DNA from: a virus
IMG/VR virus record: IMGVR_UViG_3300044701_000724
Location: 1 to 35,796 of that record
Strand: one strand, 5' to 3'
DNA length: 35,796 nucleotides
Part shown: positions 3,690 to 11,495 of the stretch, piece after piece
Layout: each line of letters opens with the position of its first letter
Numbering within the stretch: the stretch's first letter is position 1
Notes under the pieces: generated by a model
Told to the model about the DNA's origin: nothing
Database searches by the model: none
Seen by the model: the letters and a program-made list of their open reading frames with translations, nothing else
Translations under genes and position numbers: made by a program

Positions 3690-3790
3690 ACGGGCTTAAA
3701 AATAGCCCCGTTTGACTTGCTAGGTCTAGCCATGCCATGCCATGCCATGCCGTGACGCGCCCAACCGCGCCCAATGGCGGCCGCGTGCCC
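3690..3790. other. GC-rich island with tandem repeats
   Basis: In an AT-rich intergenic region this stretch holds an imperfect hairpin (ACGGGCT / AGCCCCGT, 3690-3711), four perfect tandem CATGC units (3731-3750), two adjacent copies of CGCGCCCAA (3756-3764 and 3766-3774) and a NotI-like GGCGGCCGC. No convincing ORF crosses it. Together with the iterons that follow it may be a replication or regulatory locus. Confidence 0.6.
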
Positions 3791-3797
3791 ATGCCCA

Positions 3798-4009
3798 TAG
3801 TGGAAAACATAGGGTAGTGGAAAACATAGCCTAGTGGAAAACATGGAGGTTTGACCCATAGTGGAAAACAAAACCCATAGTGTAAAACAGAATGATTCTA
3901 AATAAGACCCTAGTGGAAAATAAAATCCTCTACCAGGATACCCTAGTGGAAAATAAAATGTTGGACTTGTCCCCCATAGTGGAAAAAAAAATCACCCTAG
4001 TGGAAAAAA
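3798..4009. repeat. Iteron-like array, nine copies of TAGTGGAAAA
   Basis: Copies start at 3798, 3815, 3832, 3859, 3878 (TAGTGTAAAA), 3911, 3944, 3977 and 3998, most preceded by CC(A/C). Spacings are 17, 17, 27, 19, 33, 33, 33 and 21 bp, so four copies are set exactly 33 bp (about three helical turns) apart. The array starts after a terminator and ends one base before the P2 repeat. It is likely a multi-site binding region for a phage protein: an origin or a P2 control region. Confidence 0.85.
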
Positions 4010-4022
4010 AACTAATAATTTA

Positions 4023-4075: not shown

Positions 4076-4315
4076 ATGTTAAAAGACCATTATTACTGCT
4101 TAGACCAGTCAGGGCTGACCCTGGAGCTGGAATCTTTCGAGAACCAGGGCATAGCCTTGGAACTATATTTTGGTGGGGGAAAGTCCCTGACCTTGGACAT
4201 CTACGATGACCTGACTGAGAAATTCTCAGACCACTACAGGACTATCTGTTCTGTGCTAGATCCATTTATTGTTGAACAATTAGAACAGGAGGTTAAGAAA
4301 TGTTTTATGAAATGA
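4076..4315 (+). CDS. Hypothetical 79-aa protein, first gene of P2 unit
   Basis: This acidic protein begins MLKDHYYCLDQSGLTLELES. It starts 23 nt after the P2 -7 box and ends ...KKCFMK with its stop inside the start region of the next gene. Predicted mostly beta then a C-terminal helix. No family recognised. Confidence 0.72.
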   Translation: MLKDHYYCLDQSGLTLELESFENQGIALELYFGGGKSLTLDIYDDLTEKFSDHYRTICSVLDPFIVEQLEQEVKKCFMK

Positions 4316-5376: not shown

Positions 5377-5972
5377 ATTTTAAATGCAGAGCAAGTGCCT
5401 TGGGTAAGTTAATGACTAACCCAAGGTCTAAGTCTGAGACTTTATCCCAGACTACAAAGAGCTACCTAGAAGAATGGGTAAAAGAGCAGATTTACGGAAT
5501 CAAGAAGCAGATTAATTCTAAGTACTTGCAGAAAGGATTGGCCCTAGAGGATCAGGCTATAGAGTTCTATTCTGTTGCTATGGATAAGGACTTCATGATT
5601 AAGAACCTAGACCACTTTGAAGATGATTTCTTCACGGGTACTCCCGACTGTATGCACGAGGGTATAGTCTATGACTTCAAGACCTCCTGGGACTGCTTTA
5701 CATTCCCTCTATTCGACCAAGAGCCTGACATGGGATACTACTATCAGCTTCAGGTGTATATGCACCTGACAGGGCTTAGAAAGGCTAAGCTAGTGTACAC
5801 GCTTCAGGATACACCTGACTATCTGACCCATGAGGAGCCTGTGAGCTACGCTCATGTGGATAACAGCTATAGAGTAAAAGAGTTTGAGATAGACTATGAT
5901 CCTATGGTAATTGAGACAGCCAAGGCTAGGATTCAAGAGTGTAGAGAGTATGTTAAAGAACTACTATCATGA
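5373..5972 (+). CDS. YqaJ/lambda-exonuclease-like recombination nuclease
   Basis: This 199-aa PD-(D/E)XK nuclease has GLALEDQAIEFY (about 55-66, first acidic residue), FTGTPDCM (87-94, metal-binding D) and YDFKTSW (99-105, the DxK catalytic strand). The later QLQVYMHLTG is the conserved Q-x-Y helix of YqaJ/RecB-type exonucleases. It should resect double-stranded ends to supply single strands to the ERF protein, with which it is translationally coupled (ATGA overlap). Confidence 0.9.
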   Translation: MNFKCRASALGKLMTNPRSKSETLSQTTKSYLEEWVKEQIYGIKKQINSKYLQKGLALEDQAIEFYSVAMDKDFMIKNLDHFEDDFFTGTPDCMHEGIVYDFKTSWDCFTFPLFDQEPDMGYYYQLQVYMHLTGLRKAKLVYTLQDTPDYLTHEEPVSYAHVDNSYRVKEFEIDYDPMVIETAKARIQECREYVKELLS

Positions 5973-7146: not shown

Positions 7147-7602
7147 ATGACATCACTAACACAGGAACAGAAAGACGAAGTCATCAGACTTTACAAGCTG
7201 AAAATAAAGAATAAGAACATTGCTAGGTTTCTAGGAGTATCATTCCATGTAGTGAACAACTTTCTCTACAAGGAATATCTAAAGACCAATGAGCGTGCTA
7301 AGAATAACGGAGCACATCTTAAACTAGCAGATGAGGTAATCGAAATGTACAAGAACGATTATCCCTACAAGCAGATCACAGAACGCACAGGACTATCACA
7401 TCACCAAATCTGTGAGATTATTAAGTTGACTACCTACCGCAGGAGACAAGGAATAACCATAAAAAATCTTAGAGAAGTGCAACGATTATGGGAGGAAGGA
7501 TACAAAATAGCTAACATTTCTTACAAGCTAGACATACCCTATGGACAGGTCCAATACTGGGTTCGCAAGATCCGTACAGGGGTGTACACAAGTGTACACT
7601 AA
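7147..7602 (+). CDS. Multi-HTH DNA-binding protein next to candidate origin
   Basis: I use ATG 7147 (151 aa), not the upstream TTG 7120. It has three homeodomain-like HTH units in series: EQKDEVIRLYKLKIKNKNIA-RFLGVS (about 5-30), ADEVIEMYKNDYPYKQITERTGLS (about 60-83) and NLREVQRLWEEGYKIANISYKLDIP (about 107-131). Such tandem HTH proteins bind repeated sites. The gene lies just upstream of the GTGTAMAC array, and the first repeats fall within its last codons, so it is a good candidate origin-binding protein or autoregulator (inference). Confidence 0.78.
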   Translation: MTSLTQEQKDEVIRLYKLKIKNKNIARFLGVSFHVVNNFLYKEYLKTNERAKNNGAHLKLADEVIEMYKNDYPYKQITERTGLSHHQICEIIKLTTYRRRQGITIKNLREVQRLWEEGYKIANISYKLDIPYGQVQYWVRKIRTGVYTSVH

Positions 7603-7852
7603 GTGTACACCTAAGTGTAAACCAAAATCGGCCTCCATTGGCTCCAATCGCAATAAGTGAACACTTTGAACACTTTTTGGGAAAAATGAAAAAAAATAAA
7701 TTTTCAGGTGGTAAAAAAAAACACTTTAACAAAAAAAGTGTAAACTTGTAAACCTAAGCCAAAAAAGTGCCAAAAATCGGGCAAATTAGAGAGTATAAGC
7801 GGTTTTAGGGGTTTACACTCTAGTGTAAACTTAGTGTAAACTTAGTGTACAC
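7582..7852. repeat. Candidate replication origin: phased GTGTAMAC clusters flanking an AT-rich core
   Basis: Left cluster: GTGTACAC at 7582, 7592 and 7603, GTGTAAAC at 7615 (spacings 10, 11, 12). Middle: GTGAACAC 7657, TTGAACAC 7666, GTGTAAAC 7738, TTGTAAAC 7746. Right cluster: GTTTACAC 7811 (inverted), GTGTAAAC 7823 and 7834, GTGTACAC 7845 (spacings 12, 11, 11). Helically phased sites flank a very A-rich stretch (about 7680-7740) that could melt. The 296-bp gap 7603-7898 holds no gene and leads straight into the primase-helicase. This is the layout of an iteron origin; function is inferred. Confidence 0.72.
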
Positions 7853-7898: not shown

Positions 7899-10106
7899 AT
7901 GAACGTCACTTTAGGAAGAGCAATTAATTTATTGAACGCTGGCTTCAGCGTAATGCCCATATCAGAAGGCAAAAAACCGCTGATTTTATGGAAGGAATAC
8001 CAGACTAAAAAGATAGAAAAAGCCGAGCTAGAACGGCTAGAGTCTAAAACCAAAGGTTATGGTATTATTACAGGATTTTATGGTACTGAATGTATAGACA
8101 TAGACCTAAAAGTATTCCCAAGTGTACAAGAGGGTAAGAAATTTTGGAATGAGTTTATCGCATTCGTTTCAGATTACATAGATGACTTCGCTAGAAAGTT
8201 TGTGATCTACAAGACTATCAACTCAGGATATCACATTATCTACAGATGCTCTAAGGTAGAAGGCAACAGAAAGCTTGCTACGCTCAAGGGACATTCTCAG
8301 GCTCTGATTGAGACTAGAGGTTCAGGTGGATACATCTACATCTACGATAATCAGGTCAGCGAATTGTCTTATGAGCAGATTCAGGAGATTACACCTGAAG
8401 AGCGTGATCTGCTGATGAATCTATGTAAGTATTTCCACTATGAAGAGAGGGTAGATGAAACGAGGCCAAAAGAGGCCGATTACAGCGGTCTAACACCTTG
8501 GGATGACTATAACCATAGGAACAAGGCATTGGACCTCTTACAAGGCGAATTTAGTGCCATTAAGCACCTGTCTGACCGCATAGTTCTACGCAAGGTAGAA
8601 AGCAAGGATGCTCTACACGGATTTATCTACAAGGACACAGGTCTGTGCTACCTGTTTACTACTGCAACCATCTACCCGCATGAGACACCGCTTAGTCCTT
8701 TTGCTATCTACGCATGGAAGTTCTTTAGTGGAAATTACTCTGAAGCTGCTAGAGAGTTATACAAGGAAGGATATGGAGAACGCAAGATTAAGAAGGTAGA
8801 GATTGAGCGTATCGAGATTCCAAAGGAAGAGCTGATATTTCCGCTAGAAGTGTTCCCTGAGACATTACAGAATTATATTCTGTTGAATCAGAAAACCTTG
8901 AATCATTCTATTGACTATATGGGTTGCTCCTTACTTTGGTACATTTCTATATGTATTGGTAACAGCTGCAAGGTTCAGGTCAAGACAGGATGGAGAGAGT
9001 CGGTAAACATTTGGCTAGGATTGATTGGCAAGGCAGGTCTAGGTAAGACCCCTAGTATAAATGCAGTCATATTCCCATTGGCTAAAAAGAATAGTTTTGA
9101 GATTAAGCATTATCAGAACGAATACAAGAAGTACAAGGAATATGAGAAGCTTTCTACTAAGGATAAGAAAGATGTGGAGGAAGTCAAAGAGCCTGTTAGG
9201 AAGCAGATTATTGTCAATGATGTGACTGTGGAGGCATTGGCGGATTTACATGAGGAGAATGCTGTAGGCATTGCAGTATTTAAGGATGAGCTTAATGGAT
9301 GGATTAAGGACATGAACAAGTACAAGCCTGGCTCTGACCTAGAGTTTTGGTTGTCCTGTTGGTCGAATCAGGAGGCTATCATGACTCGAAAGACTGCAAA
9401 GAGTAGCTTTATCCAATCCCCATTGATTCCTGTTCTTGGAGGCATACAGCCTGGGATATTCTCGCAGATTTCTACCTTGGAGAATAAGGACAATGGATTC
9501 CTAGACAGATTGCTTGTCTGCTATCCTGATAAGGACATCGAGCATTACAACAGAAATGCCATAGATCAGGAAGTATTGGATTGGTACGAGGCTTATATGT
9601 CTCAGTTCTATAACCTCATAAGAAAAGAAGTCTTGCAGTTTAATAAGTTTGGTGAGATAGAGCCTAGAGTGATACGATTTGATACGGAAGCAGAACAGGA
9701 ATGGGAGCGGATATTTAACAACATCACAGATATGCAGAACTCAGATGATATTTCTGAGTATGTGAAATCCATGTTGAGTAAGCAGAAGGCTTACATCCCA
9801 AGGTTCGCTCTGATAATTAATTCGATTACTGCTTACAATAATTCTAGCGGTTTTGATTGGGTAAGTAAGGATAGTCTCCTGAAGGCAGAGAAGTTGAGTA
9901 ACTACTTCATTGCCATGTCTAAAAAGATTAAGGTGAACTCATTGGAAAGCTCCGAGCTAAATGAGTTGGTTCGCTCATTAAAGAATGAATCGATTGAAAG
10001 AAAGATACAGCAGATTCAGGAAGCCATCCCTGATTTTAACCGCTCTGAGTTAGCAGAGTTACTGAATGTTAGTAGAACCACTATTTATAAACACTTAAAG
10101 AAATGA
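7899..10106 (+). CDS. Prim-pol / DUF3987-type primase-helicase
   Basis: This 735-aa replication protein has three parts. Residues 1-160 are a bifunctional primase/polymerase (AEP) domain: GYGIITG (53-59), the catalytic IDID pair (D67, D69), SGYHIIYR (109-116) and ETRGSGGYI (138-146). Residues about 320-640 match the DUF3987 helicase-like domain with Walker A GKAGLGKT (377-384) and Walker B-like VFKDE (460-464). The last 25 residues (RSELAELLNVSRTTIYKHLKK) form an HTH that could bind the adjacent repeats. It probably primes and opens the origin just upstream. Confidence 0.9.
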   Translation: MNVTLGRAINLLNAGFSVMPISEGKKPLILWKEYQTKKIEKAELERLESKTKGYGIITGFYGTECIDIDLKVFPSVQEGKKFWNEFIAFVSDYIDDFARKFVIYKTINSGYHIIYRCSKVEGNRKLATLKGHSQALIETRGSGGYIYIYDNQVSELSYEQIQEITPEERDLLMNLCKYFHYEERVDETRPKEADYSGLTPWDDYNHRNKALDLLQGEFSAIKHLSDRIVLRKVESKDALHGFIYKDTGLCYLFTTATIYPHETPLSPFAIYAWKFFSGNYSEAARELYKEGYGERKIKKVEIERIEIPKEELIFPLEVFPETLQNYILLNQKTLNHSIDYMGCSLLWYISICIGNSCKVQVKTGWRESVNIWLGLIGKAGLGKTPSINAVIFPLAKKNSFEIKHYQNEYKKYKEYEKLSTKDKKDVEEVKEPVRKQIIVNDVTVEALADLHEENAVGIAVFKDELNGWIKDMNKYKPGSDLEFWLSCWSNQEAIMTRKTAKSSFIQSPLIPVLGGIQPGIFSQISTLENKDNGFLDRLLVCYPDKDIEHYNRNAIDQEVLDWYEAYMSQFYNLIRKEVLQFNKFGEIEPRVIRFDTEAEQEWERIFNNITDMQNSDDISEYVKSMLSKQKAYIPRFALIINSITAYNNSSGFDWVSKDSLLKAEKLSNYFIAMSKKIKVNSLESSELNELVRSLKNESIERKIQQIQEAIPDFNRSELAELLNVSRTTIYKHLKK

Positions 10107-10325: not shown

Positions 10326-11495
10326 ATGAGACACGGATCACTATTTAGCGGTATAGGAGGCTTTGATTTAGCATCCGAATGGATGGGGTGGGAGAATGTA
10401 TTTCATTGTGAATGGAATCCATTTGGACAGAAAGTACTTAATTATTATTGGCCTAATTCTATAACTTACAATGACATCACAAAGACAGATTTCACTATTC
10501 ACAGAGGAGGAATTGACATCATTACAGGTGGATTCCCATGTCAACCCTACTCATCCGCAGGAAAGCGACTCGGCAAGGAGGATGAGAGACACCTCTGGCC
10601 AGAGATGCTTAGAGCAATACGAGAGATTCAACCGACCTGGGTTGTGGGCGAAAACGTTCGTGGGCTTACTAATTGGAATGGAGGGTTGGTATTCGACGAG
10701 GTGCAGGCTGAGTTGGAAGCTCAAGGCTACGAAGTCACACCGTTTCTACTTCCAGCTTGTGCCGTTAACGCACCCCACAGAAGGGACAGAATTTGGTTTA
10801 TTGCCTACTCCCCTGGCGCAAGCAAGAGAGCAAACGAACTTCGAGGCTTACGATCAGAGAATGGAGAGATTGATAGAGAAGGGTCACAAACCATTCACGA
10901 TGCCATTGGATCAAATGGCATTGAGGGGACTACTTCCAACTCCGACAGCAGTTCAAAGGAATCATCCAGAAAGAGTGGAAGCATTAATAGCAACTGGGGC
11001 AACAACAATGCAGAGCAGAAACAATGGCGAGAATCGACCGAACAGCATATTGGATGCAATAATGTTTCAAGCAATGCTTCCGACTCCCAATGCTTACGAT
11101 TGGAACACTCCGAGAAAACCAGAAACATTTCTGAAAGCAAAAGAAAGACACGCTCAGAAAGGAGTGAATCTTCAGAATCCTTTAAAGCAAATGGCATCAA
11201 TGAATATGCTTCCGACTCCGATGGCATCGGATTGCGGAGAAAAAGTGACAGGATTGGAAACTCAAGATTCTCTAACAAAAAGAGCAAGACAGATAACTGG
11301 ACAAACTTCCCAACTGTCCCCCCAATTTGTGATGGAGATGATGGGCTTTCCGACAGATTGGACTCTATTACCTTTTCTAAATGGAGACAAGAGTCAATTA
11401 AAGCAGGAGGAAACGCAATAGTTCCGCAAGTAGTTTATCAGATATTTAAAGCAATCGAGCAATATAATCAACTTGATAAGCAACTATCAATATGA
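10326..11495 (+). CDS. C5-cytosine DNA methyltransferase
   Basis: I start at ATG 10326 (389 aa), because the upstream extension uses TTG. Motif I GSLFSGIGGFDLA (4-16, SAM binding), motif IV GGFPCQPYS with catalytic C72, motif VI GENVRGL (108-114), motif VIII APHRRDRIWFIA (149-160) and motif X GGNAIVPQVVYQIF near the C-terminus are all present. The target-recognition part (about 162-340) is unusually rich in S, N, E and K, with repeated SDS. That same DNA encodes a well-composed protein in another frame. It probably protects phage DNA from host restriction. Confidence 0.93.
   Translation: MRHGSLFSGIGGFDLASEWMGWENVFHCEWNPFGQKVLNYYWPNSITYNDITKTDFTIHRGGIDIITGGFPCQPYSSAGKRLGKEDERHLWPEMLRAIREIQPTWVVGENVRGLTNWNGGLVFDEVQAELEAQGYEVTPFLLPACAVNAPHRRDRIWFIAYSPGASKRANELRGLRSENGEIDREGSQTIHDAIGSNGIEGTTSNSDSSSKESSRKSGSINSNWGNNNAEQKQWRESTEQHIGCNNVSSNASDSQCLRLEHSEKTRNISESKRKTRSERSESSESFKANGINEYASDSDGIGLRRKSDRIGNSRFSNKKSKTDNWTNFPTVPPICDGDDGLSDRLDSITFSKWRQESIKAGGNAIVPQVVYQIFKAIEQYNQLDKQLSI
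10471..11421 (+). CDS. Overlapping 316-aa ORF inside the methyltransferase gene (LPTP-repeat protein)
   Basis: In the +1 frame relative to the methyltransferase, this ATG-started ORF lies wholly within it. It has an N-terminal region with GQRCLEQYERFNRPGLWAKT (43-62) and WYSTRCRLSWKLKATKSHRF (73-92), four LPTP motifs at 111, 155, 203 and 247 (spacings 44, 48, 44), and a C-terminal QFVMEMMGFPTDWT (285-298). I recall proteins with WKLK...LPTPTAxD...MMGFPxxWT beside or across phage C5 methyltransferases, so the frame appears conserved beyond this genome (memory, unverified). No SSU-binding site was identified. It may act with the methyltransferase. Confidence 0.65.
   Translation: MTSQRQISLFTEEELTSLQVDSHVNPTHPQESDSARRMRDTSGQRCLEQYERFNRPGLWAKTFVGLLIGMEGWYSTRCRLSWKLKATKSHRFYFQLVPLTHPTEGTEFGLLPTPLAQAREQTNFEAYDQRMERLIEKGHKPFTMPLDQMALRGLLPTPTAVQRNHPERVEALIATGATTMQSRNNGENRPNSILDAIMFQAMLPTPNAYDWNTPRKPETFLKAKERHAQKGVNLQNPLKQMASMNMLPTPMASDCGEKVTGLETQDSLTKRARQITGQTSQLSPQFVMEMMGFPTDWTLLPFLNGDKSQLKQEETQ

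Follow-up and report, generated by a model that had tools for sequence, protein, structure and literature searches.

A phased repeat array beside a prim-pol/DUF3987 gene as the probable replication origin of a tailed-phage family, with a repeat word that follows the recognition helix of the adjacent protein

Background

Classical iteron plasmids (RepA/RepE) are served by tandem winged-helix initiators of the Rep_1/Rep_3 type. In satellite phage P4, primase, helicase and origin binding are united in the alpha protein, which has a DNA-binding domain at its C-terminus; the system uses short iterons, with ori and crr separate. The pri-rep-ori modules of PICIs and SaPIs have, next to a primase/initiator gene, an AT-rich region with a set of short repeats on each side; for one PICI element, origin function was tested in a plasmid, and the layout has been stated to be known from no other bacterial replicon (PMC6092414). 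Plasmid pRN1 has an essential cis element beside its replicase gene, a stem-loop of ~100 nt, with the bound motifs described as "not yet identified" (PMC4234260). For the PrimQH/All3500 AEP primases, DUF3987 is predicted to be the helicase and a C-terminal WH domain is predicted to act in origin recognition; the accessible text of that account gives no origin sequences or specificity data (PMC5862659).

The locus described here lies in a 35,796-nucleotide stretch of virus record IMGVR_UViG_3300044701_000724, which we call the window. As in the PICI/SaPI modules, its primase/initiator gene is accompanied by an AT-rich region that has a repeat set on either side. However, the PICI ori lies immediately 3' of rep, whereas the array of the window lies 5' of its primase gene and those of its relatives lie 3' in 52 of 89 loci; PICIs are satellites, whereas the window genome encodes terminase, portal and major head proteins of its own and so is no PICI (PMC6092414). 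Its initiator, built of prim-pol, DUF3987 and HTH domains, also differs from that of PICIs. Like pRN1 ORF904, it is a single protein with prim-pol, helicase and C-terminal DNA-binding parts, and the two share the prim-pol fold (Z 15.7); however, the pRN1 helicase is of SF3, whereas the domain here is DUF3987 by Pfam with an MCM-like model that has low-confidence stretches, and the pRN1 origin is a stem-loop rather than a repeat array with a deduced word (PMC4234260). The domain order is that of PrimQH/All3500, although our model has no wing, and recognition can here be tied to specific residues and bases, unlike in the accessible part of that account (PMC5862659). The prim-pol of phage NrS-1, which has a helicase-like C-terminus, matches the N-terminal domain of our protein, but its 8-nt motif is a template priming site read by a helix-bundle domain, rather than a duplex array with an HTH reader (PMC8718748). 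P4 alpha with its ori-crr is likened to our initiator by description, for the one-protein build (P4 is named in PMC6092414). No Rep_1/Rep_3-type Pfam match was found in the initiator or in the neighboring triple-HTH protein. The system thus appears to be of known build, with a PICI-like layout and a pRN1-like replicase, and to be new in its legible initiator-origin code. From sequence comparison, we consider 7582-7852 very probably to be the replication origin of this phage, with the adjacent prim-pol/DUF3987 protein as its own initiator.

The repeat array

The octamer GTGTAMAC occurs nine times without mismatch within 271 bp (7582-7852). Four copies form a left cluster on the + strand (7582-7622), in which the sites at 7582-7589, 7592-7599 and 7603-7610 read GTGTACAC and that at 7615-7622 reads GTGTAAAC, with steps of 10, 11 and 12 bp. 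Four more form the right cluster, likewise + (7811-7852), where the first site (7811-7818) is the inverted word, GTTTACAC, followed by GTGTAAAC at 7823-7830 and 7834-7841 and by GTGTACAC at 7845-7852, with steps of 12, 11 and 11 bp. A reading of the DNA from its sequence alone had described two clusters of four octamers in 10-12 bp steps, and these exact sites were all found; to them we add a ninth exact octamer inside the core (7738-7745) and two near-matches, GTGAACAC at 7657-7664 and TTGTAAAC at 7746-7753. The left and right clusters are near mirror images of each other, with 34-nt arms that are 85% complementary. When the whole 35.8 kb was simulated 300 times with a Markov model of local dinucleotide composition, no 271-bp stretch had more than 2 octamers, compared with the 9 observed; elsewhere in the window exact octamers occur only as singletons, at 5793, 22190 and 25682. 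The array is confirmed as real and far beyond chance.

The same reading had the left cluster beginning in the last codons of a gene for a 151-aa triple-HTH protein (7147-7602, + strand), and indeed the sites at 7582 and 7592 lie within these codons, ahead of the stop codon (TAA, 7600-7602), while the third site begins 1 base past it. Its placement of the prim-pol/helicase directly 3' of the sites is also borne out: 46 bp separate the end of the right cluster from the start codon of the prim-pol/DUF3987 gene (7899-10106).

The core between the clusters (7623-7810) is A-rich around 7682-7745. Its best 60-mer, at 82% AT, ranks 103 of 35,736 for AT content, though for nearest-neighbor stability its rank is only about 555, the minimum of the window lying at ~1840. 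The core is thus easily melted, as had been proposed, though it is not the weakest stretch of the window. The 60-mers with the highest AT content and the lowest stability are found at 1840-1900, outside the core, where leftward and rightward gene runs switch. Folding of the core gave z -2.55, with short hairpins; five relatives gave z -4.1 to -6.4, mostly from inverted repeat words, and one gave -1.2. A stem-loop origin like that of pRN1 appears less likely, as the hairpins of the core are short and those of relatives are mostly a by-product of the inverted words. GC skew, which had been suggested as a check, gave no origin signal and no independent support, since its sign tracks gene orientation.

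The source genome and the initiator protein

The 35.8 kb record includes genes for terminase large subunit, portal, major head, head-morphogenesis and endolysin proteins; the terminase, portal, major head and endolysin genes identify it as a tailed phage. Terminase and portal lie in a separate gene block that is transcribed opposite to the block of the array and primase. We found no full-length homologue in INPHARED phages, plasmids, genome contigs or 395 genomes of one bacterial class, the matches in these 395 genomes being to the DUF3987 region only. A bacterial or isolated-phage source was rejected on these grounds, and as no full-length homologue came from such sets, the host is one that we infer; Bacteroidota is suggested. 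All relatives compared below are metagenomic. A C5-cytosine DNA methyltransferase gene (10326-11495) lies a short distance downstream of the initiator gene.

The initiator gene (7899-10106, + strand) encodes 735 amino acids with Pfam matches PF09250, PF13148 and PF08279/PF02954, which correspond to an N-terminal prim-pol domain (aa 9-160), a DUF3987 AAA+ domain (aa 338-676) and a C-terminal HTH (aa 699-735). The structural model has a mean pLDDT of 72, and of 71-88 in the C-terminal HTH blocks. Its prim-pol part aligns with pRN1 ORF904 (1rni) at Z 15.7 over 163 residues with an rmsd of 3.0. The model of the DUF3987 domain (8910-9926 in the window) resembles MCM-type AAA+ proteins at Z ~11, with low-confidence stretches, a predicted likeness that is in line with the published prediction of DUF3987 as a helicase. 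The HTH is modeled as three short helices (699-709, 715-722 and 726-734) with no wing seen, and the profile of the tail matches the NtrC-family DNA-binding domain (E 0.001). The recognition-helix codons (aa 726-734, RTTIYKHLK) lie at 10074-10100 on the + strand and include the putative word-determining residues R726, T727 and K731.

The array in related loci

A first search yielded 80 viral loci encoding relatives of the primase. Essentially all relatives with at least 81% primase identity and enough flank keep the sites at near-equal mutual distances, and in these relatives the triple-HTH protein drops to ~50% identity. Among 56 distinct relatives, 83% of the columns of the left cluster are invariant, compared with 20% in the HTH codons that immediately precede it, and the core has a mean column identity of 0.915; the right cluster is also conserved. 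The array element is therefore more conserved than the triple-HTH gene that it overlaps. Primases at 40-70% identity have arrays as well, although these often start at the stop codon and lie 3' of the gene, and the word is often a different one.

The family was compared over 97 loci below 93% mutual identity. A 7-mer cluster of at least six copies lies beside the primase in 86 of these, compared with 6 of 652 control 700-bp windows from the same loci; the other 11 have fewer than six copies. The array is placed either 5' of the primase, as in the window and its clade, or from the primase stop codon, the latter in 52 of the 89 loci with a called word. In 11 of these 52, the last codon and stop of the primase (GTG TAA) are themselves part of the first repeat. 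Span (median 259 bp overall; 265 upstream, 258.5 downstream) and spacing (peak at 10-12 bp) are alike in the two placements, and the AT-richest 50 bp (93% AT) falls at relative position 0.40-0.60 in 92% of arrays, compared with 23% of control windows. Paired sites occupy one place per genome in each of five ~35 kb records. Word orientation was considered as a left/right rule, and no such pattern was seen across the family. Comparison among loci thus shows a symmetrical architecture with an AT centre, and the position, span and AT-rich centre of the arrays, all conserved across the family, lend good support to the earlier suggestion of an origin-like region beside the primase. The order of protein, sites and helicase, which had been taken for a compact module, does not hold up, since the array lies downstream of the primase in 52 of the 89 loci. 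By this distribution the array goes with the primase, not with the triple-HTH gene or a promoter position.

This bears on whether the array, bound by the primase HTH, is instead an operator through which the replication genes regulate themselves, the origin lying elsewhere. The position 5' of the primase in the clade of the window would suit an operator, as would a weak match in the core to a Bacteroidota-type promoter (TTTG at 7676, a 17-bp gap and TAAATTTT; the host is only presumed to be of Bacteroidota) and the direction of the gene next after downstream arrays, which is on the same strand in 44 of 46 loci and makes these arrays compatible with transcriptional control. However, an array that begins at the primase stop codon does not control initiation of primase transcription, and the arrays so placed, in 52 of 89 loci, have the same span, spacing and AT-rich centre. 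An operator, moreover, needs far fewer sites than the 10 or more that here surround a central melting region within 260 bp. We therefore regard the operator as an improbable account of the array, although an origin array may additionally regulate transcription, and such dual use is possible.

The repeat word follows the recognition helix

In more than 100 related viruses the repeat word shifts in step with the DNA-reading tip of the primase. The recognition helix has the pattern S-x1-x2-x3-I-x5-x6, with R726, T727 and K731 of the window as x1, x2 and x6. Helices of the form R-x-x-I-x-K accompany the word GTGTAAAC, and those of the form R-Q-x-I-x-N accompany GTGTAAAG. Where x6 is R the word is GTGTAAC (in general form ..AAC); where x2 is R it is GTGTGAA, with the TA step gone (TGTG, TGCG and similar); and where both are R it is TGTGACA. 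With L or V at x1 the word is GTTTAAA, GTTT replacing TGT when x1 is L, V or I. Natural words include GTGTAACA in L387, GTGTGAA in L236 and GTTTAAA in L384. The same pairs of helix and word recur across separate clades. On a tree of the primase protein minus its last 90 residues, tree-aware independent pairs agree in 6.5 of 7 cases for x1, 11.9 of 12 for x2 and 10.4 of 11 for x6, with no opposite switches; these 89-locus statistics are partly post hoc, the rules having been drawn from the first loci.

Cleaner tests are provided by held-out loci, a rule-free scan and a control for linkage in upstream and downstream arrays. As the rules had been formed on part of the data, predictions were written before new loci were fetched. 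The held-out set comprised 17 new non-redundant loci, 16 of them with at least 7 copies, and was tallied by hand. The prediction for x1 was right in 5 of 5 loci with L, counted as GTT without TGT (3 of 4 for the stricter word GTTTAAA), and in 11 of 11 with R. That for x2 was right in 3 of 3 loci with R and in 10 of 14 without, the exceptions being L515, L558, L514 and L498; the prediction for x6 as R, where x5 is other than Y, was borne out in 2 of 2 loci, and the remaining loci were as predicted. The predictions on the held-out loci thus mostly held.

When each variable alignment column was scanned without rules, and with overall identity regressed out, residues 726, 731 and 727 ranked first, second and third among 583 variable primase columns; the best 7-residue window was 725-731 (partial Mantel r 0.49, 0 of 2000 permutations). 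Upstream arrays, which are separated from the helix codons by more than 2 kb, gave r 0.55, and comparison of upstream with downstream loci gave r 0.53, with 0 of 1000 permutations as high in either case. Since upstream arrays show an equally strong r, linkage of the tail codons to the array was rejected as the cause of the covariation. Base contacts in Fis- and Hin-type HTHs come from residues at the beginning and in the middle of the recognition helix, and by analogy positions x1, x2 and x6 would fit contacts of this kind. Recognition of the octamers by the C-terminal HTH of the putative initiator is what the covariation shows at the level of sequence, and it is strongly supported, as is the earlier proposal of the primase tail as an alternative binder.

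The triple-HTH protein and a second array

The preferred binder of the sequence-only reading was the 151-aa protein, which would then be an iteron-binding initiator that recruits the helicase. Its gene lies just upstream of the array, it has three HTH units, and a relative is present in every tested member of the clade of the window. A profile search, however, found relatives only in that clade plus one weak match, and none was found near the arrays of ~100 other related loci. The three recognition helices of the protein vary while the word of the clade is constant, and variation of the word is explained by the primase helix. A fold search gave no match at E <= 0.001. With its distribution so restricted and its recognition helices not conserved, the triple-HTH protein was rejected as the octamer binder and is very unlikely to be the initiator; it is probably a clade-specific accessory or regulator rather than a universal binder.

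Its distribution is better matched by another repeat. A second array (3798-4010), of ~10 copies of TAGTGGAAAA(C/T)A, lies in the gap ahead of a rightward run of genes that starts at 4076. With at least 3 copies as the threshold, this array occurs in 21 of 33 relatives that have the triple-HTH gene, compared with 0 of 81 that lack it, and is a candidate site for binding by the triple-HTH protein. The intergenic gap before 4076 also contains GCCAT x4.6 (3729-3751).

A model for initiation

Tandem phased sites are known also in centromere-like elements, but the reading of this array by a replicative primase-helicase whose gene it adjoins, and the location of terminase and portal in another, oppositely transcribed block, make a partition, packaging or phage-maturation site the least probable alternative to an origin.

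At the putative origin, the C-terminal HTH of the prim-pol/DUF3987 protein would bind the GTGTAMAC octamers, the ~11-bp phasing setting several copies of the initiator on one helix face at each side of the A-rich centre. The AAA+ (DUF3987) domains would then assemble at the array to open the centre, exposing strands on which the prim-pol domain would begin synthesis. Helicase loading, melting, priming and firing are here predicted from the domains. A fuller picture, which we offer as speculation that is rather more likely wrong than right, is of a presumed Bacteroidota phage lineage with initiator, helicase and primase in one polypeptide, in which three helix residues give each lineage an orthogonal address word, this code stops co-infecting phages from firing one another's origins, and a symmetrical pair of helicase rings is loaded at the AT centre in the manner of MCM double hexamers.

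Origins of uncultured phages are rarely known, and here the probable origin, its binder and the bases read by individual residues can be made out from sequence. That DUF3987 primases recognize origins through their C-terminal DNA-binding domain had been predicted, and the findings provide evidence for this. They also suggest that an AT core between two sets of repeats, a layout that had been reported as unique to PICIs, serves a widespread family of tailed phages as well. The more than 100 natural pairs of initiator and origin form a resource on the evolution of specificity.

Other arrays with similar words

Arrays of GTGTAAAC in exact 11-bp steps were seen in a Bacteroidales MAG (L202:999-1083), Candidatus Frackibacter (L206:5695-5735) and a Hymenobacter MAG (L209:5874-5914). 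The genomes of L202 and L209 have no homologue of the phage primase, and the three arrays possibly belong to other replicons with a similar word. Three viral contigs carry GTGTACAC arrays (L126:2330-2642, L196:804-978 and L198:9319-9598). No prim-pol/DUF3987 relative was detectable in the fetched stretches of these contigs, where another initiator may read the GTGTACAC word.
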